Positions 18,377 to 33,214 of a stretch of 34,511 bases of DNA are shown piece by piece. Each line of letters starts with the position of its first letter. Within the stretch, counting starts at the first letter, position 1. A program made the position numbers and the translations under genes. The DNA lies in assembly GCF_021531815.1 (NCBI RefSeq), contig NZ_JADYUM010000022.1, forward strand, positions 1 to 34,511, written 5' to 3'. The notes beneath the pieces are model-generated. The model was given only the letters and a program-made list of their open reading frames with translations. It had not been told where the DNA came from and made no database searches. This DNA comes from Pseudoflavonifractor phocaeensis. GTDB taxonomy: Bacteria; Bacillota; Clostridia; Oscillospirales; Oscillospiraceae.

Positions 18377-20032
18377 ATGAAACAGATGGGTATGACAGTG
18401 ATCCTGGGGCTGCTGGGCGGTCTGGCCCTGTTCCTGTACGGGATGCAGATGACCAGCTCCGGCCTGGAGGCCGCGGCAGGCGACAAGATGAAGTCGATCC
18501 TGGAGCGGCTGACCGCCAACCGGTTTTTGGGCGTGCTGGTGGGCGCGCTGATCACGGCGGCGGTCCAGTCCTCCTCCGCCACCACCGTCATGGTGGTGGG
18601 CTTCGTCAACGCGGGAATGATGACCCTGAACCAGGCGGTCTGGATCATCATGGGCGCCAACATCGGCACCACCATCACCGGCATCCTGGTCTCCCTGGAC
18701 ATGGGAGCCATCGCGCCGCTGTTCGCTTTCGTGGGCGTGGTGCTGGTGATCTTTGTGAAAAGACAGCGGATCCAGCATGTGGGCCAGATCCTGGCCGGCC
18801 TGGGCGTGCTCTTTATCGGTATGGAGATGATGAGTACCGCCATGGCCCCCCTGCGGGAATCGGAGGCCTTTATCCGGCTGGTGTCCAATTTCTCCAATCC
18901 CGTGGTGGGCATCCTGGTGGGCGCGGCCTTTACCGCCATCATCCAATCCTCCGCCGCGGCCGTGGGCATCGTGCAGACCCTGTTCAACGCGGGGATCATC
19001 CCCTTTGCCAGCGCCTCCTTTGTCCTGTTCGGCACCAATATCGGCACCTGTATCACCGCGGTGCTGGCCTCCGTGGGTACCAACCGCAATGCCCGCCGGG
19101 CCACCCTGATCCACCTGATGTTCAACCTCATCGGTACGGTGGTTTTCACCCTGCTGGTGCTGATGCTGCCCATCACCCACTGGATCCAGCTTCTGGTCAG
19201 CGCGCCCAAGGCCCAGATCGCCGCCATGCACACCTCCTTTAATATCGGCACCACCCTGCTGCTGCTGCCCCTGGGCAACTACCTGGCCAAGCTGGCGGTG
19301 CGCATCCTGCCCGACCTGCCTCAGGCGGAGAAGGATGAGTCTGTGATGTGCCTGGAATACCTCAAGCCGGTCTCCACCACCGGAAAAGAGGGCGGCCTGG
19401 GCGTGTCCGCCATCGTAGTCGACCAACTGCGCCATGAGCTGAACCGGATGCTGTCCATGGCCCGGGACAACGTGGCGGAGAGCTTCCGGGCGGTCCTGGC
19501 CCGGGATGCCAGCCAACTGGACGTGGTGGAGGAGCGGGAGGAGTATATCGACTTTTTGAACAAGGAGATCTCCCGCTACGTCTCCCACCTGATCTCCATC
19601 GAGACCAACGAACAGGGCTCCGTCGTGGTCAGCAGCTTTTTCACCATTTCGGGAAACATCGAGCGTATCGGCGACCACGCCGACAACCTGGCCGGCTACA
19701 CCCGGCTGTTGGTGGATAAGAACGTCAGCTTCTCCGAGACTGCCCAGAACGAGATCGGCGCCATGCGGGACATCTGTCTGGAGGCCATCGCCGCCCTGCT
19801 GCACCACCAGGCCGGCCAGCCCGAATGGCTGGTGGACGTGGCCCAGTTGGAGCAGCGCATCGACGACATGACCGACCAGTTCCGCCGGGGCCAGCTGGAC
19901 CGGATGCGCATGGGCACCTGCAACGAGGAGGCCTGCATCATCTACTCCGAGCTGCTCACCGACTTCGAGCGTATCGGCGACCATGTGCTGAACATCGCCG
20001 AGGAGCTGACCAAGGTCCAGACCTGCCTGTAA
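18377..20032 (+). CDS. Na/Pi cotransporter family protein with C-terminal PhoU-like domain
   Basis: About 551 residues. Two inverted Na_Pi_cotrans repeats, each with the QSS signature (QSSSATTVMVVGFVNAG near 64-80 and QSSAAAVGIVQTLFNAG near 195-211), surrounded by hydrophobic helices. From about residue 340 a cytosolic PhoU-like helical bundle follows (ERIGDHADNLAGYT and ERIGDHVLNIAEEL, one per repeat). NptA-type proteins import phosphate with sodium. The ATG at 18377 has GAGG six bases upstream; the ATG at 18386 is possible, and a GTG at 18350 is unlikely. Its promoter carries an 11-bp repeat array and its leader an attenuator-like hairpin. Confidence 0.93.
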   Translation: MKQMGMTVILGLLGGLALFLYGMQMTSSGLEAAAGDKMKSILERLTANRFLGVLVGALITAAVQSSSATTVMVVGFVNAGMMTLNQAVWIIMGANIGTTITGILVSLDMGAIAPLFAFVGVVLVIFVKRQRIQHVGQILAGLGVLFIGMEMMSTAMAPLRESEAFIRLVSNFSNPVVGILVGAAFTAIIQSSAAAVGIVQTLFNAGIIPFASASFVLFGTNIGTCITAVLASVGTNRNARRATLIHLMFNLIGTVVFTLLVLMLPITHWIQLLVSAPKAQIAAMHTSFNIGTTLLLLPLGNYLAKLAVRILPDLPQAEKDESVMCLEYLKPVSTTGKEGGLGVSAIVVDQLRHELNRMLSMARDNVAESFRAVLARDASQLDVVEEREEYIDFLNKEISRYVSHLISIETNEQGSVVVSSFFTISGNIERIGDHADNLAGYTRLLVDKNVSFSETAQNEIGAMRDICLEAIAALLHHQAGQPEWLVDVAQLEQRIDDMTDQFRRGQLDRMRMGTCNEEACIIYSELLTDFERIGDHVLNIAEELTKVQTCL

Positions 20033-26933: not shown

Positions 26934-28172
26934 TCAGCCGATCAATTCCGAATCCACCAGGGCCACTTCCACCGCATAGGACACGCCGTCCCGCAGGTAG
27001 GTGAGCTCCACCGTGTCCCCGGGGCCCAGGGACAGCTTTATCCGGGCCAGGTCCTGGGTGCCGGTGACGGGCTGGCCGTTGACGGCGGTAATGATGTCCC
27101 CCGCCTGGAGCCCTTTGGCATAGGCGTCGCTGTTGGGGTCCACGCTCTGGAGCTCCAGACCGCCGGACACCGGCCGGGTCAGGACGGTGAAGCCGAAAAC
27201 GCCGGTGCGGACCTGTCGGCCGTCGATGAGGGTGTCGGCCACATACTTCACCCGCCGGGAGGGAATGGCAAAGCCCAAGGCCTCGGCGGAGCCGTCGTCG
27301 GTGACGATTTTGATGGTGGTGATGCCCACCACCTGGCCGTATTGGTTGATGAGGGCACCGCCGGAGTTGCCGAAGTTGATGGCGGCGCTGGTCTGGATCA
27401 GGGTCATGGTGACGCCGTCCACCTCCACCTCCCGGTCCAGGGCGGAGACGATGCCGTCGGTGATGGTGGAGCGGTAGCCTAGGGGGTCGCCGATGGCGGC
27501 CACCGGATCGCCGCAGCGCAGGGCGGAGGAATCGCCGAACTCGGCGGGAATGAGGCCCTCCGCCTCCACCTTTAATACCGCCAGGTCCTCGTCGGCGTCA
27601 AAGCCCACCAGGCTGGCCTCCAGTACGTCGTTGTCGTAGAAGACCACCTGGACATACTCGGCCCCCGCCACCACGTGGGCGTTGGTGATGATATAGCCGT
27701 CTTCGGTGAGGATGACGCCGGTGCCGGTGCTGAATTCGTGCCGGCTCTCCGACTCGATGGAGACGATGGAGAAGGCGTTCTTCTCATAGATCTGGGTACA
27801 GGTCAGGGATTCGCCGGAGGCGGGCGTCAAGTCCAGGGTGACGCCGGTCCCTGTTTCCGCCCGGGGAATGGAGGGGGGATCGGTGCTGTACTCCTGCTCT
27901 TGATAGCGGTCGTCCTCCCCATGAGGGGGTGGGAAAAACTCCGCCTGGGAGAAAAAGCGGCTGCCGAAGGCCACGGCGATCCCGGTCAGGACCAGGATCA
28001 GGACCACCAGCAGGGCAATTCCGCCGCCCCGCCGCCGCCGGCGGGGACGGAGCACAGGCCGGCGGGGCTCCATGGCGTGGGCAGGGATGCGCACCGCCGG
28101 AGGCGTTGGAAAATGGGGAGAGGGCTGCTCCCAGGGGCCGCCCTGCCAGAGGTCGTCACTTCGATTGTCCAA
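26934..28172 (-). CDS. HtrA/DegP-like S1C serine protease with PDZ domain
   Basis: 412 residues. A cytosolic Arg-rich tail, one membrane helix (~50-70), a Pro-rich linker, a trypsin-like domain with catalytic His166 (ITNAHVV), Asp196 (DEDLAVL) and Ser270 (NFGNSGGAL), and a C-terminal PDZ domain (~320-405; QAGDIITAVNGQPV). Such membrane-anchored proteases degrade misfolded envelope proteins. It lies behind the histidine kinase in one operon, the arrangement known for envelope-stress or cell-wall two-component systems. Confidence 0.94.
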   Translation of the reverse strand: MDNRSDDLWQGGPWEQPSPHFPTPPAVRIPAHAMEPRRPVLRPRRRRRGGGIALLVVLILVLTGIAVAFGSRFFSQAEFFPPPHGEDDRYQEQEYSTDPPSIPRAETGTGVTLDLTPASGESLTCTQIYEKNAFSIVSIESESRHEFSTGTGVILTEDGYIITNAHVVAGAEYVQVVFYDNDVLEASLVGFDADEDLAVLKVEAEGLIPAEFGDSSALRCGDPVAAIGDPLGYRSTITDGIVSALDREVEVDGVTMTLIQTSAAINFGNSGGALINQYGQVVGITTIKIVTDDGSAEALGFAIPSRRVKYVADTLIDGRQVRTGVFGFTVLTRPVSGGLELQSVDPNSDAYAKGLQAGDIITAVNGQPVTGTQDLARIKLSLGPGDTVELTYLRDGVSYAVEVALVDSELIG

Positions 28173-28209: not shown

Positions 28210-29649
28210 TCACGCCAGGGTCATGGTGAAGGTAAACTGGGTCACACCGTCCTCACTGGTGACGGTGATGTCCTCTTTCAGATTATTCAGAATGGTCTTG
28301 ACGATATACAGGCCCAGACCCACGCCCTCCCGGTCCATGGAGCGGGAGTAGTCCGCCTTATGGAAGCGCTCAAAGAGGAGGGGCAGCTCCTCCGGAGGGA
28401 CGGTGGCCCCCAGGTTGCGGATGGTGGTGTAGGCCTTGCCGTCCTTTTTGGTGATCTGGACGGTGATGGTGGTGCCCGAGGCGGCGAACTTGGCGGCGTT
28501 GTCCACCAGGTTGTAGCACACCTGGGTGATGGAGTCGGGATCGCCCCAGACCATCAGCTTGTCCTCCGGCATCTGCACGTCCACGTCCAGGTTCCGGCCG
28601 GTGATCTTGCCCTCCAGGCTGATGAGGACCTGGGACATCACCTCGGTGAGGTCAAACTGCTCCTGGGCGGTGAGGGTATTCTCCGACAGGGCGTTGAGCC
28701 GGCTCAGGTCCAGCATCCGGCGCACCAGGCGGGACAGCCGCCGTGTCTCGGATACGATGATCTGGAGGGACTCCTTCTCCCGCTCCGGCGGGATGGTGCC
28801 GTCCAAAATGCCCTCGGCGAAGCCCGCGATGGTGGTCATGGGGGTCTTCAGCTCGTGGGAGACGTTGGCGATGAACTCCGACCGCTGGCTCTCCACCTTC
28901 TCCAGGGAGTTGGCCATGGCGTTGAAGGCGTCGGCCAGCTCGCTGATCTCGTCACAGCGGCTCTCGTAGCCCGTGACCCGTACGTCAAACTCCCCACGGC
29001 CGAACTTCCGGGCGGCCTCGGCCATCTCTTTCAGGGGCCGGACCTGATAGGCGGAGGTGAGGGAGCTGGCCACAACGGCGATGAGCAGCACCACCACCGC
29101 GGAGAAGAAAAAGATCGTGGCGGTGGCCGACCAGATCTCAGACACGCTGGAGGCGTCGGCGGAGACCAGCACCATCCCCTGGACCACGGAGATGCCGCCC
29201 AGCTTGACGGTGACGGGGAGGCCCGCCACATACCGGCGCTCGGGATAAATGCCGTCCAGATTGCTCATGCCGGCGAAGGAGCCCTGGTTCAAAACGGATT
29301 GGACCACGCTGTCCGGAATACGTTCGTTGTCGTTGTAGGAGGAAAAGCGGGTGCCGTCGGTGGCGTAGATGACCTGCCCGTCCGGGTTGGAGACGATCAC
29401 GTGGGAATCGGTGAGCAGCGCGATGGAGGAGACATAGTTTTTGTACAGCTCACTGTGAATATCCATATACTGCTGGTAGTAGGCGGAGGTAAAGGCGGCG
29501 ATATAGTTGGCGTTGCGGCCCAGGCCATCCCGCTTTTCAGAGATGATATAGCGGTAGGACAGCAGCATAAAGGCGGCGGACAGCAGAGAGAAGGACAGCA
29601 CCATAATGCCCACCATCATGGTGAGCTGCCGGCGGTAGAGGGATTTCAC
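28210..29649 (-). CDS. Sensor histidine kinase (HAMP, HisKA, HATPase)
   Basis: 479 residues. TM1 (~10-32), an extracytoplasmic sensor domain (~35-170, PDC/Cache-like by its pattern LLTDSHVIVSNPDGQVIYATDG), TM2 (~175-197), HAMP (~200-250), HisKA with phospho-accepting His265 in VSHELKTPMTT, and an HATPase domain with NLVDNAAKFAA and GVGLGLYIVKTI. It overlaps the response-regulator gene by four bases. The stimulus cannot be read from the sequence: the HtrA gene downstream suggests envelope status, while the shared boxes at the Na/Pi promoter suggest phosphate. Confidence 0.95.
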   Translation of the reverse strand: MKSLYRRQLTMMVGIMVLSFSLLSAAFMLLSYRYIISEKRDGLGRNANYIAAFTSAYYQQYMDIHSELYKNYVSSIALLTDSHVIVSNPDGQVIYATDGTRFSSYNDNERIPDSVVQSVLNQGSFAGMSNLDGIYPERRYVAGLPVTVKLGGISVVQGMVLVSADASSVSEIWSATATIFFFSAVVVLLIAVVASSLTSAYQVRPLKEMAEAARKFGRGEFDVRVTGYESRCDEISELADAFNAMANSLEKVESQRSEFIANVSHELKTPMTTIAGFAEGILDGTIPPEREKESLQIIVSETRRLSRLVRRMLDLSRLNALSENTLTAQEQFDLTEVMSQVLISLEGKITGRNLDVDVQMPEDKLMVWGDPDSITQVCYNLVDNAAKFAASGTTITVQITKKDGKAYTTIRNLGATVPPEELPLLFERFHKADYSRSMDREGVGLGLYIVKTILNNLKEDITVTSEDGVTQFTFTMTLA

Positions 29650-30338
29650 GCCGCCCCACCTACCTCAAATTTATAGCCCACGCCCCACACGGTCTTGAGC
29701 CTCCACTGGTCGCTGACGTTTTCCAGCTTCTCCCGCAGCCGCTTGATGTGGACGTCCACGGTGCGGCTGTCGCCGAAGTAGTCGAAGCCCCAGACCTCGT
29801 CCAGCAGCTGGTTCCGGGTAAAGACCCGGTTGGGAGCGGAAGCCAGGTGGTAAAGCAATTCCAGCTCCTTGGGGGGCGTGTCCACCCGCTGGCCGTTGAC
29901 CAGAAGCTCGTAGGAGTCCAGATTGATGACCAGCTTGTCAAAGGTCAGCTTCTTCTCGCCGGGCTCCTCCTCCTCGCCGCTGCGGCGGAGGACGGCGTGG
30001 ATGCGGGCCAGTACCTCTTTCATCTCAAAGGGTTTGACGATGTAATCATCGGCCCCCGACTCCAAACCGGAGACCTTGTCCTCCGTCTCGCCCTTGGCGG
30101 TGAGCATGATGACGGGGGTCTTCCCGGCTTCCCGGATCTTTTTCAGGACGGCCCAGCCGTCCATGACAGGCAGCATAATGTCCAGCAGCACCAGGTCGGG
30201 CTGGAAGGAGCGGAAAAACTCCACGCCTTTGCCGCCGTCCTTGGCCACCTGGGTCTCGAACCCCTCTTTCTCCAGATAGAGGTGGAGCAGCTCGGCAATA
30301 TTGCCGTCATCCTCTACGATCAATACCTTTTTGGGCAT
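29646..30338 (-). CDS. Response regulator, OmpR/PhoB family
   Basis: About 230 residues. Receiver domain with acidic pair Glu9-Asp10-Asp11, phosphorylation site Asp53 (LLDIMLPVMDG), the T/K switch residues in MLTAKGE and IVKPFEM; winged-helix DNA-binding domain with FTRNQLLDEVWGFDYFGDSRTVDVHIKRLREKLE. The ATG at 30338 has AAGGGGTG upstream; a GTG three codons earlier is less likely. OmpR-type proteins bind tandem repeats 10-11 bp apart, which are present at its own promoter. Confidence 0.95.
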   Translation of the reverse strand: MPKKVLIVEDDGNIAELLHLYLEKEGFETQVAKDGGKGVEFFRSFQPDLVLLDIMLPVMDGWAVLKKIREAGKTPVIMLTAKGETEDKVSGLESGADDYIVKPFEMKEVLARIHAVLRRSGEEEEPGEKKLTFDKLVINLDSYELLVNGQRVDTPPKELELLYHLASAPNRVFTRNQLLDEVWGFDYFGDSRTVDVHIKRLREKLENVSDQWRLKTVWGVGYKFEVGGAA

Positions 30339-30431
30339 ATGAGGCACCCCTTTTCTTTGAATTTCGCCGGTTCAGCAATCAAAATCCGCGGGGAGCGGAA
30401 AGCTGGCCCCGTAGTTTCTTCCTCAGAGAGT

Positions 30432-30473
30432 ATTATAACTCCAATCAGGCCGCTTGGGTGAATAATTTGTAAA
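30432..30473 (-). promoter_or_regulatory. Promoter of the two-component operon with 11-bp repeat box
   Basis: Reverse strand: TTTACA (30468-30473), five bases, TTCACC (30457-30462), then a perfect -10 TATAAT (30432-30437) 19 bp on. There is no proper -35; the half-site sits in its place, as in activator-dependent promoters. TTTACA-N5-TTCAnn also occurs at the two small-RNA units near 31902 and 32081, which suggests autoregulation. Confidence 0.6.
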
Positions 30474-30503: not shown

Positions 30504-31673
30504 TCAGCCCCGGACGTCCACATAGGAGTGGTCCACCTGGATCACGGGGAAATAGCGGTCGGACAGGCCCTTAATCCCGGCGGTCAGCTCAGAGCGCACC
30601 TGGTCGTCGGTGAGGCGGAAGCCGTAGGGCACCACCACGTCGAAAATCAGATTGGTGTGGATGGGGCCGGCGGTGATGCGGAAGTCGTGGATGGTGAGGG
30701 CGGGGTCCATTCCCTTGGCGATGTCGGTCACCTGCTGCCGGAGTCCGGCGGTCCGCTCGTCACATACCACCGGGTCCATGTGGATGGTGGTCTCGATGTG
30801 GTGTTTGGCCTTCAGCTCCCGCTCGATGTGGTCGATGAGGTCGTGGATCTCCAGCAGGTCGCCGTCGGCGGGGACCTCGGCGTGGAAGGACATCATGGCC
30901 CGCCCCGGACCGTAGTCGTGGTAGACCAGGTCGTGAATGCCCAGGATCTTGTCGTGGCCCAGCACCAGCTTGTCAATGTCGGCGGCCAGCTCCGGGTCCA
31001 TGGGGCGGCCCAGCAGGGGGTCCAGCGTCTCCCGGGCGGCCTCCCAACCGGTTTTCAGGATGAGCAGGGAGACGGCCAGACCGGCCAGACCGTCGATGGG
31101 GAAGGATACGAACCGGCCCAGCAGGGCGGAGGCCAGGACCACCGAGGTGGAGGCCACGTCGGACAGGGAGTCGGCGGCGGTAGCCTCCATGGCGGCGGAG
31201 CCGATGGCACGGCCCAGGGCGCGGTTGAAGAAGAACATCCACAGCTTGACGGCGATAGCCGCGGCCAGGATGACCAGGGACAGGGGAGTGGCCTCGACGG
31301 GCGAGGGGTGGAGCAGGGCGTCCAGGGAGGAGCGGCCCACCTCGAAGCCCATGAGCAGAATGGCCAGGGCCACGATCAACCCGGTGACGTACTCCACCCG
31401 GCCGTGGCCGAAGGGGTGGTCGGCGTCGGCCTCCTGTCCCGCCAGACGGAAGCCAATCAGGGTGACAACGGAGGTGGCGGCGTCGGACAGGTTGTTGACG
31501 GCGTCGGCCACCATGGCCACGGAGGAGGTGATGAGGCCGGCCAGCAGCTTGCCCAGAAACAGCAGTATGTTCAGAAAGATCCCGATGCCACCGGACATGG
31601 TGCCGCAGCGGCGGCGGGTCTTGGGGTCGTGCTTATCACCGCCGCGCAGGCAGAAGTTTACAAAGAATCCCAT
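30504..31673 (-). CDS. Cation diffusion facilitator (CDF) family transporter
   Basis: 389 residues. Six membrane helices with the metal-site motifs DAVNNLSDA (TM2) and DSLSDVAS (TM5) and the cytosolic HPFGHGRVEY loop, then a ferredoxin-like C-terminal domain with metal-binding His residues (HAEVPADGDLLEIHDLIDHIE) and a further ~80-residue tail. CDF proteins export Zn, Fe, Mn or Co by proton antiport; the metal is not certain. AAGGAG lies about 12 bases before the ATG, longer than usual. Confidence 0.93.
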   Translation of the reverse strand: MGFFVNFCLRGGDKHDPKTRRRCGTMSGGIGIFLNILLFLGKLLAGLITSSVAMVADAVNNLSDAATSVVTLIGFRLAGQEADADHPFGHGRVEYVTGLIVALAILLMGFEVGRSSLDALLHPSPVEATPLSLVILAAAIAVKLWMFFFNRALGRAIGSAAMEATAADSLSDVASTSVVLASALLGRFVSFPIDGLAGLAVSLLILKTGWEAARETLDPLLGRPMDPELAADIDKLVLGHDKILGIHDLVYHDYGPGRAMMSFHAEVPADGDLLEIHDLIDHIERELKAKHHIETTIHMDPVVCDERTAGLRQQVTDIAKGMDPALTIHDFRITAGPIHTNLIFDVVVPYGFRLTDDQVRSELTAGIKGLSDRYFPVIQVDHSYVDVRG

Positions 31674-31756: not shown

Positions 31757-31901
31757 GACAAGGCGGCTCCGGTCCCTTTCAGATGGGCGCGCCGCAAAAG
31801 ACGCGGCTGGATGGGGCGGGACCGGCGCCGTGTTTTTGACGGGAGGGGGAATTTGGCGTGTGCGCCACAAAAAGGAATGATACGGGGAAAAATCCCGGCA
31901 T

Positions 31902-31962
31902 TGTTTACAAAATGTTCATACCATTGTCACGATTTTGCCTTAATTCTCCGTTACGATAGTAC
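31902..31962 (+). promoter_or_regulatory. Box array and promoter of small RNA unit 1
   Basis: TGTTTA (31902), TGTTCA (31913), TTGTCA (31924) and TTGCCT (31935) start at exact 11-bp steps. Candidate -10 elements are TACGAT (31952-31957, 11 bp after the last hexamer) or TAGTAC (31957-31962, 16 bp after). Written in the other register, the first two sites are TTTACA-N5-TTCATA, a perfect match to the B. subtilis PhoP repeat pattern TT(A/C/T)A(C/T)A. Confidence 0.7.
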
Positions 31963-31967
31963 CGTAC

Positions 31968-32056
31968 CAAACGTACCAATTATCTCCCATTTCTCCCTCT
32001 CCTTTTACAACACACACAGGCGGAAGGCCCTGGCCGTATGGCCGGGGCCTTCTGTC
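31968..32056 (+). ncRNA. Putative small RNA 1 (C-rich, box-controlled)
   Basis: About 85-90 nt from an estimated start near 31968 to a hairpin at 32023-32052 (13 bp, one G-U, loop GTAT). No ORF with an RBS on this strand. The unpaired middle contains TTTCTCCCTCTCCTTTT followed by ACAACACACACAGG, nearly identical to unit 2. Pyrimidine-rich stretches of this kind can pair with Shine-Dalgarno regions, as in RoxS/RsaE-type RNAs. The T run is poor (TTCTGTCG), so the 3' end is uncertain. Confidence 0.6.
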
Positions 32057-32080
32057 GTCCGGAGGGGGAAAACAGCCGGA

Positions 32081-32141
32081 TGTTTACAAAAAGTTCATGT
32101 CCGCGTCATGGATTTGACGCAATTATATTGTAGCATATTCC
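32081..32141 (+). promoter_or_regulatory. Box array and promoter of small RNA unit 2
   Basis: TGTTTA (32081), AGTTCA (32092), GCGTCA (32103) and TTGACG (32114) repeat the 11-bp steps of unit 1. TAGCAT (32131-32136) or TATTCC (32136-32141) would be the -10, at the same two distances as in unit 1. Confidence 0.7.
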
Positions 32142-32146
32142 CGTAG

Positions 32147-32250
32147 CCAGAAGACATCATAATTCACCTCTTTTCTCCCTCTCCTTTACAACACACACAG
32201 CAAAAGGCCCTGACAGCTGTCAGGGCCTTTTGCTGTGTGTTTTATTTTGT
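32147..32250 (+). ncRNA. Putative small RNA 2 (C-rich, box-controlled)
   Basis: About 100 nt. It contains CACCTCTTTTCTCCCTCTCCT and ACAACACACACAGC, the last ~30 nt matching unit 1 except for one deleted T and a changed final base. It ends in an extremely strong terminator: a perfect 24-bp inverted repeat, 32193-32216 with 32217-32240, followed by TTTATTTTG. Homologous to unit 1 over promoter, C-rich core and 3' hairpin position, so the pair arose by tandem duplication. Confidence 0.65.
32193..32250. terminator. 48-bp perfect palindrome terminator
   Basis: Two 24-base arms with no mismatch, the 3' arm running into TTTATTTTG. It terminates small RNA 2 and probably also the converging prephenate dehydrogenase transcript, whose stop codon lies at 32242-32244. 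Confidence 0.9.
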
Positions 32251-33123
32251 TCCGTTGCGGCCCACGGCGCCGCTTTCCTGCTCCAGCTGGTTCATCTTCC
32301 GCTTCCGGGCGGCGGAGACGGACAGCCGCTGGGCGAGGGCCTCCGTGTCCCCGGCCTGGATGGCAAGACGGTAGTCCCGGATGTTGCCCTCCAGCTGTTC
32401 CAGAGCGGTACACAGGGCGCAGGCGTTCATGGAGAACAGCTGGGTCCAGAGGGGGACGTCCAGCGCGGCCACCCGGGTGCAGCCCCGGAAGGAGTCGCCC
32501 TCGAAGCCCTGGTAGCGGAACAGGCTCTCGTCATCACAGACGGCCACGGCGATAATGTGCATCATCTGGCTGGTGTAAGCGATGATGGCGTCGTGCTCCT
32601 CGGGCGTGGTCTTGACCACGTCGGCGCAGCCCGCCTGCTTGGCCACCCGCTCCATCAGGGCGATATGCTCGGGACGGGACTGCTGGTTAGGCGTGAGAAT
32701 GTAGTGGGCGTTGAGGAACATGTTATCCAGGGAGTTCTGGATGCCGGAGGTCTCCCGGCCCGCCATGGGGTGCCCGCCCACGAAGGAGACGTTGCCGGGC
32801 AGGGCCGTGGCCGCCTCCAGGACGGCCCCCTTGATGCCGCACACATCGGTGACCATGGCGCCCGCCTTGAAGTGATCTTTATGTTCCGTCAGGAAATCCA
32901 CGATGCCCTTGGGGTGGAGACAGAGAAATACCAGGTCCCCCTGGGCCAGGGCCTTGACCGGGTCGGTCTCCGCCTGGTCGATGATGTTGTTTTCCAGGGC
33001 GAAGCGCAGCGTGGGCTGGCTCACGTCCAGGCCGATGATGTCAAAATCCTCAAAGCCCCGCAGGGCCCGGGCCATGGAGCCGCCGATCAGGCCAAGCCCC
33101 ACAATTACAATATGTCTGCTCAT
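32242..33123 (-). CDS. tyrA: Prephenate dehydrogenase
   Basis: 293 residues from the ATG at 33123 (GGGGG upstream). Tyrosine biosynthesis: oxidative decarboxylation of prephenate with NAD(P)+. Rossmann signature GLGLIGGS (residues 9-16), DVCGIKG, the substrate-binding GGHPMAGRETSGIQNS and HDAIIAYTSQMMHIIA match the family. No chorismate mutase or ACT domain is attached. The C-terminal ~25 residues are hydrophilic. Encoded alone, convergent with small RNA 2. Confidence 0.95.
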   Translation of the reverse strand: MSRHIVIVGLGLIGGSMARALRGFEDFDIIGLDVSQPTLRFALENNIIDQAETDPVKALAQGDLVFLCLHPKGIVDFLTEHKDHFKAGAMVTDVCGIKGAVLEAATALPGNVSFVGGHPMAGRETSGIQNSLDNMFLNAHYILTPNQQSRPEHIALMERVAKQAGCADVVKTTPEEHDAIIAYTSQMMHIIAVAVCDDESLFRYQGFEGDSFRGCTRVAALDVPLWTQLFSMNACALCTALEQLEGNIRDYRLAIQAGDTEALAQRLSVSAARKRKMNQLEQESGAVGRNGTK

Positions 33124-33185
33124 AGTAACCCCCATGCGCCTCCGGGCGCGGTAAAATGGTAAGCTCCCCGGTGGAAGCCAGAAAC

Positions 33186-33214
33186 ACTTTAACACAGTTA
33201 ACTATTAAAGTCAA
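33186..33214 (-). promoter_or_regulatory. Promoter of tyrA
   Basis: Reverse strand: -35 TTGACT (33209-33214), 17-bp spacer, weak -10 TAAAGT (33186-33191). Confidence 0.5.

Follow-up and report, generated by a model that had tools for sequence, protein, structure and literature searches.

Tandem units in Pseudoflavonifractor phocaeensis that probably encode a conserved family of anti-ribosome-binding-site small RNAs beside an OmpR-family response regulator

Two families of small RNAs (sRNAs) under two-component control offer the closest described precedents for the locus analysed here. The csRNAs of streptococci belong to the CiaRH regulon; in the portions of the literature drawn on here (PMC3091779, PMC8186281), a genome encodes several of them, controlled by an OmpR-family regulator, and each presents an unpaired sequence complementary to a Shine–Dalgarno (SD) site and start codon (anti-AUG, CAU) and closes with a terminal stem-loop. 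LhrC1–5 of Listeria, which depend on LisRK, are described in the sections used as multicopy sRNAs with redundant CU-rich UCCC sites and a link to envelope stress, with lapB a proven target (PMC4132741). We examined a pair of repeated units in a 34,511-nucleotide stretch of P. phocaeensis DNA, referred to as the window, and compared them with these systems.

The units lie head to tail on the + strand (unit 1, 31904–32056; unit 2, 32083–32240; starts 179 bp apart), in the gap between a CDF efflux gene and tyrA, both of which are on the − strand (Table 1). Each follows a common plan: hexamers at 11-bp steps, a −10 element, an unpaired CU-rich core containing ACAACACACACAG and a strong hairpin. 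The first-pass annotation had proposed such a pair with units of ~165 bp; location and plan are borne out, but the lengths are corrected to ~153 and ~158 bp. All four of its hexamers are found at both units, in the form TTTACA-N5-TTCAT-N6-GTCA(C/T)G followed by a weaker fourth hexamer; across 46 aligned units, hexamers 1–3 are strongly conserved and hexamer 4 less so. The candidate −10 likewise holds up: it begins 48 bp downstream of where the box begins, an offset constant across units, and there the eight commonest hexamers (TATGAT-like) account for 43 of the 46. An invariant ACACACA adjoins the core in alignment A1 (described below).

Table 1 Coordinates of the two units and of neighbouring features in the window
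Feature	Position	Strand	Sequence or basis
HtrA-like serine protease with PDZ domain	26934–28172	−	
Histidine kinase (HAMP, HisKA, HATPase_c)	28210–29649	−	
OmpR-family response regulator (MtrA/YycF/PhoB-like), proposed activator	29646–30347	−	
Response-regulator promoter −10	30432–30437	−	TATAAT
Two-hexamer box in response-regulator gene promoter	30457–30473	−	TTTACAAATTATTCACC; box matrix
CDF efflux gene	30504–31673	−	
Unit 1 regulator box (four hexamers, 11-bp period)	31904–31942	+	TTTACA/TTCATA/GTCACG/GCCTTA
Unit 1 −10	31952–31957	+	TACGAT; constant 48-bp offset, 46 units
sRNA 1 (predicted), ~93 nt	31964–32056	+	Start predicted from −10; covariance-model match; fold
Unit 1 core	31982–32019	+	UCUCCCAUUUCUCCCUCUCCUUUUACAACACACACAG; alignment A1
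Unit 1 hairpin, 17 pairs	32019–32056	+	Fold and covariation
Unit 2 regulator box (four hexamers, 11-bp period)	32083–32121	+	TTTACA/TTCATG/GTCATG/GACGCA
Unit 2 −10	32131–32136	+	TAGCAT; constant 48-bp offset
sRNA 2 (predicted), ~100–104 nt	32143–32246	+	Predicted start; covariance-model match; fold
Unit 2 hairpin, 22 pairs, U-rich tail after	32193–32240	+	Fold; terminator call
tyrA	32242–33195	−	

The hairpins are as strong as had been claimed, with z scores of −5.76 (unit 1) and −8.54 (unit 2) and none of 200 shuffles per unit reaching the observed structure. The core is unpaired in the centroid folds of both units; the minimum-energy fold of unit 2 places a weak stem there that is absent from the centroid. 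The unit 2 hairpin is called as a terminator and is followed by a U-rich tail and, being palindromic, may also end tyrA. The hairpin of unit 1 has no notable U-run behind it and no terminator call. Shuffling predicts that 9.0 of the 47 units have a 5′ stem of 4 bp or more, yet 20 do; this stem may shield the 5′ end of the RNA. The absence of a + strand reading frame, as first annotated, holds in one sense only: a mechanical 111-aa frame (31811–32146) crosses unit 1, but relatives contain no conserved frame, the longest closed frame being shorter than 10 aa in 42 of 47 related units. A + strand peptide was rejected on this ground.

Conservation was followed at several depths. A DNA search of 60 genomes gave matches in 32 (own genome included), corresponding to 32 of 37 from the same genus and 0 of 23 others. 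From loci L002–L031 we aligned 47 units (alignment A1) and built a covariance model, R1; one unit, L005, has two mismatches and was lost from the alignment of boxes, which is why box statistics refer to 46. In the window, R1 matches unit 1 at 31958–32064 (97 bits) and unit 2 at 32137–32242 (89.8 bits). Fifteen of the 16 hairpin pairs vary on both sides with pairing retained, and 98.0% of 744 cells hold a pair, against 85.0% in shuffles (0 of 500 reaching the observed value). At E ≤ 1e-3, R1 has a match in 63 of the 64 genomes of the genus. Counting R1 matches of at least 50 bits, 55 of the 64 (own included) carry a unit: 30 have two or three in tandem, 19 have at least two that are separate and 6 have one. 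Among the nine genomes under 50 bits, the weaker match in three (G032, G066 and G067) still has box, core and hairpin.

The cores fall into two types, A (UCUCC-UUUCUCUCUCC) and B (UCUCCCAUUUCUCCCUCUCC), although the rule used leaves 19 of 46 units as neither (11 A, 16 B). In each of the 11 loci having one of each, type A lies ahead of type B, and identity between genomes is 0.70 (A–A) and 0.76 (B–B), compared with 0.64 for A–B within a genome. The fixed order and the higher identity within types indicate an ancient duplication whose copies have retained their order. The B core occurs in named records of Pseudoflavonifractor, Flavonifractor, Flintibacter and Lawsonibacter, among others; the window's own units do not form a clean A/B pair. 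Selection on a pair of regulatory RNA genes with OmpR-type promoters and an anti-SD core, as the first-pass annotation had proposed, gains support from conservation, covariation, fixed promoter geometry and the ordered A/B paralogues. Conservation and covariation, taken with the unit plan, lead us to read the units as very probably belonging to a real, conserved and uncatalogued sRNA family, whose transcription we infer from these features. Rfam gives 0 matches in the window at the gathering cut-off (24 sub-threshold matches all lie below it), and a limited search of the literature on Oscillospiraceae, Flavonifractor and related genera found no report of such a family. A search for the genus names in the main text of PMC8040213, which presents predictions from human microbiomes on a large scale, gave no match, and the tables of that paper possibly contain an earlier, unnamed prediction of these sRNAs.

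Matches thin out beyond the genus. At the family level, 83 of 200 genomes have R1 matches at E ≤ 1e-3; many of these matches score low and might be no more than terminators. Sixteen strong matches from other genera were read: ten show a clear box, pyrimidine core and hairpin, and three have no forward box; with the 45-bp box matrix, ten of the same 16 score at least 26 and three score 1 to 13. L072 lies ~300 bp from a regulator gene of 87% identity, and L066 adjoins a CDF gene. L070 and L076 (~1400–1600) are other-genus sRNA-like units without a forward box, L070 having a box-like repeat pair upstream in the opposite orientation. Outside the family, matches are few: at E ≤ 1e-6, 3 of 295 order genomes, all from other families. 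Of these, L214 resembles the units in its core but lacks the box, and L215 and L217 look like plain hairpins. A phylum search of 397 genomes returned one non-self match, L292, with a promoter of another type. L214 (1501–1605) and L292 (1501–1593) share a similar pyrimidine core and hairpin, placed behind a TTGAC-type promoter; they may be distant relatives or cases of convergence.

A candidate activator is encoded next to the units. The response regulator has its best profile matches to MtrA, YycF and PhoB, each under its cut-off, and among solved structures it is closest to MtrA and RegX3. It is conserved at 84–95%, and 60 of the 64 genus genomes contain it at E ≤ 1e-80. Its own promoter carries a box of two hexamers, with hexamers 3 and 4 absent. 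Among distinct upstream sequences of at least 120 bases, 30 of 30 from the regulator hold this two-hexamer box above the shuffled 99% level, accompanied by a −10 resembling TATAAT at 36–38 bp; over the same level are 1 of 32 upstream sequences of the CDF gene and none from tyrA (0 of 3), the kinase (0 of 25) or HtrA (0 of 13). For the full box, with up to three mismatches allowed in 14 genomes, 29 of 30 matches fall at sRNA units, and the reversed pattern has no match in the same genomes. The sole match elsewhere (G006:C25:476; L203 476–509) has three mismatches and stands before a possible promoter.

Regulator and units are also linked. Of the 60 genus genomes in which the regulator is found, 44 have a unit no more than 5 kb away from it and 54 have units of at least 50 bits, compared with one of the four genomes lacking it, not all of these genomes being complete. 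That one, G009, has two strong units and no regulator match; six with the regulator have no 50-bit unit, three of which show weaker members on reading. In G017, regulator and units are ~0.98 Mb apart and the box is kept in both promoters. On 21 of 48 named contigs, a CDF gene and a regulator of at least 88% identity lie within one stretch. From the box in its own promoter and from this linkage, we infer that the regulator drives both the sRNAs and itself, making this MtrA/WalR/RegX3-like protein most likely the activator of the sRNAs and a better candidate than a phosphate regulator. The kinase has a WalK-like profile score and the HtrA gene sits beside it, which together point to envelope stress as a possible signal.

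How the sRNAs might act is suggested by the core. The earlier proposal that it is complementary to SD sites is upheld, 31 of 46 units holding the complement of GAGAGGGAGAAATG. Since the complement of the B core reads SD, spacer and AUG, covering translation starts is the likeliest action, in line with what is described for csRNAs (PMC3091779) and LhrC (PMC4132741), and we consider it likely that the sRNAs block them. Pattern searches, sRNA loci included, gave 74 matches to GGAGAGRGAG before ATG in 8 genomes versus 29 reversed, an excess that the AG-rich bias of SD sites could produce by itself, and 113 matches to GGAGAGGGAGAAATG (up to two mismatches, 6 genomes) versus 53 reversed. No convincing target emerged from the 16 candidate places read; the sole gene recurring among them (three genomes), which from its protein sequence we take to be rplB, has an ordinary SD. 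Duplex energies at the start regions of the regulator, CDF and tyrA genes are near those of shuffles. They are somewhat below shuffles for the kinase (median −14.8 versus −11.9) and HtrA (−13.7 versus −8.4), and a conserved pairing site is absent from both start regions. Target prediction against start regions, by patterns and by neighbour-gene duplexes, thus yielded no specific target. Two loci on contig C11 of the window's own genome (L276, L277) have strong SD-like sequences followed by frames of 6 and 3 codons, which are either leader peptides or chance.

We regard it as probable that the two units are genes of non-coding sRNAs of one family (~93 and ~104 nt), activated by the neighbouring regulator and repressing translation starts. 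The regulator (29646–30347) would bind the TTTACA-N5-TTCAY-N6-GTCAYG box and activate the sRNA promoters, and would activate its own promoter through the two-hexamer version. The unpaired core would then pair with the translation start regions of target mRNAs, causing repression, and the 3′ hairpin would terminate and protect the RNA. Control by phosphate, as first suggested, is not supported, as most of the pst promoters read in the genus carry another box and the neighbouring regulator's promoter shares the sRNA-type box. That the same sRNAs are instead driven in phosphate starvation by a regulator of the PhoB/PhoP type encoded in the pst operon, which does contain a regulator gene, is unlikely. 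Pho boxes have the same 11-bp period and TTTACA first hexamer, and since the pst box of this genome scores 17.7 with the two-hexamer matrix (regulator promoters, median 16.6), PhoB might bind here. However, the pst promoters of the genus (six of seven readable; TTTAC-N6-TT(A/T)AC) differ from the sRNA box in the second hexamer and downstream half, the other five scoring 5.3, 4.0, −1.6, −2.8 and −8.1, and the full 45-bp matrix finds nothing in the seven pst regions. Three genomes (G006, G029 and G035) have no phoU match over the cut-off, in a search for phoU only, yet carry units. In the window, a PhoU-like stretch (19421–20008, + strand; 72.9 bits, below the PhoU cut-off) lies inside a 595-aa open frame, perhaps a Na/phosphate cotransporter with a PhoU-like tail.

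Other readings dispute the action or the existence of the RNAs. Under the same promoters, the RNAs might mainly bind a protein or sponge another RNA, an option that would suit the empty target searches and the invariant ACACACA, which SD pairing leaves unexplained; we think it decidedly improbable, as two-thirds of the cores (31/46) are exactly complementary to an SD, its spacer and AUG, as in csRNAs (PMC3091779). A reading without independent RNAs, in which bidirectional, promoter-distal terminators serve tyrA and its neighbours and the box serves something else, draws on the palindromic unit 2 hairpin abutting tyrA, but the hairpin is conserved together with box, −10 offset and core at many loci with varied neighbours, leaving this very unlikely. 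A simple tyrA 3′ UTR fails because tyrA is on the opposite strand and many relatives' units lie away from it. Scarcely credible is a small gene on the opposite strand: reversed, the core does resemble an SD followed by ATG (GAGAGGGAGAAATG on the − strand, 31 of 46 units), but the motif is absent in 15 of 46, the frames after the ATG vary in sequence and length and mostly stop early, and promoter and −10 face the + strand, away from such a gene. As its frames are not conserved, this antisense gene was rejected.

Within the preferred reading, sRNAs under the neighbouring regulator, we tentatively raise the possibility of a two-component system whose output runs almost entirely through sRNAs, with the full box assigned to multicopy anti-ribosome-binding-site sRNAs and the half box to its own gene. 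If true, it would be a Gram-positive counterpart, in gut Clostridia, of GacA acting via RsmY/Z. For gut Oscillospiraceae, the analysis contributes a widely conserved sRNA family that had not been catalogued, together with its likely regulator, and the promoter box gives a handle for direct testing of an uncharacterized response regulator.

The nearest kinds appear to be the CiaR csRNAs and LhrC, placing the units with sRNAs of the two-component-controlled, anti-ribosome-binding-site kind. So far as the consulted parts of those papers describe them, LhrC and the present units are alike in being multicopy, with CU-rich UCCC sites, two-component control and envelope stress (the last two predicted here), but LhrC carries its CU sites within loops and in the stretch separating two stem-loops, whereas a single unpaired core is used here. 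With csRNAs, on the same partial basis, the units share several related sRNAs per genome, an OmpR-family regulator (here proposed), a hexamer-N5-hexamer box, an unpaired anti-SD and anti-AUG (CAU) region (complementary in 31 of 46 units, unpaired in the centroids), a terminal stem-loop and a linked HtrA. The boxes differ: CiaR recognizes TTTAAG-N5-TTTAAG, while here TTTACA-N5-TTCAY is joined by GTCAYG, and the second hexamer starts with TTCAC or TTCAT in 46 of 46 aligned units, not with the CiaR repeat. By their box the units are not csRNAs; they come from another class of bacteria and, unlike csRNAs, often lie beside the regulator operon. The comparison suggests that csRNA-like circuits—a two-component system, HtrA and several anti-ribosome-binding-site sRNAs—exist in Clostridia too.
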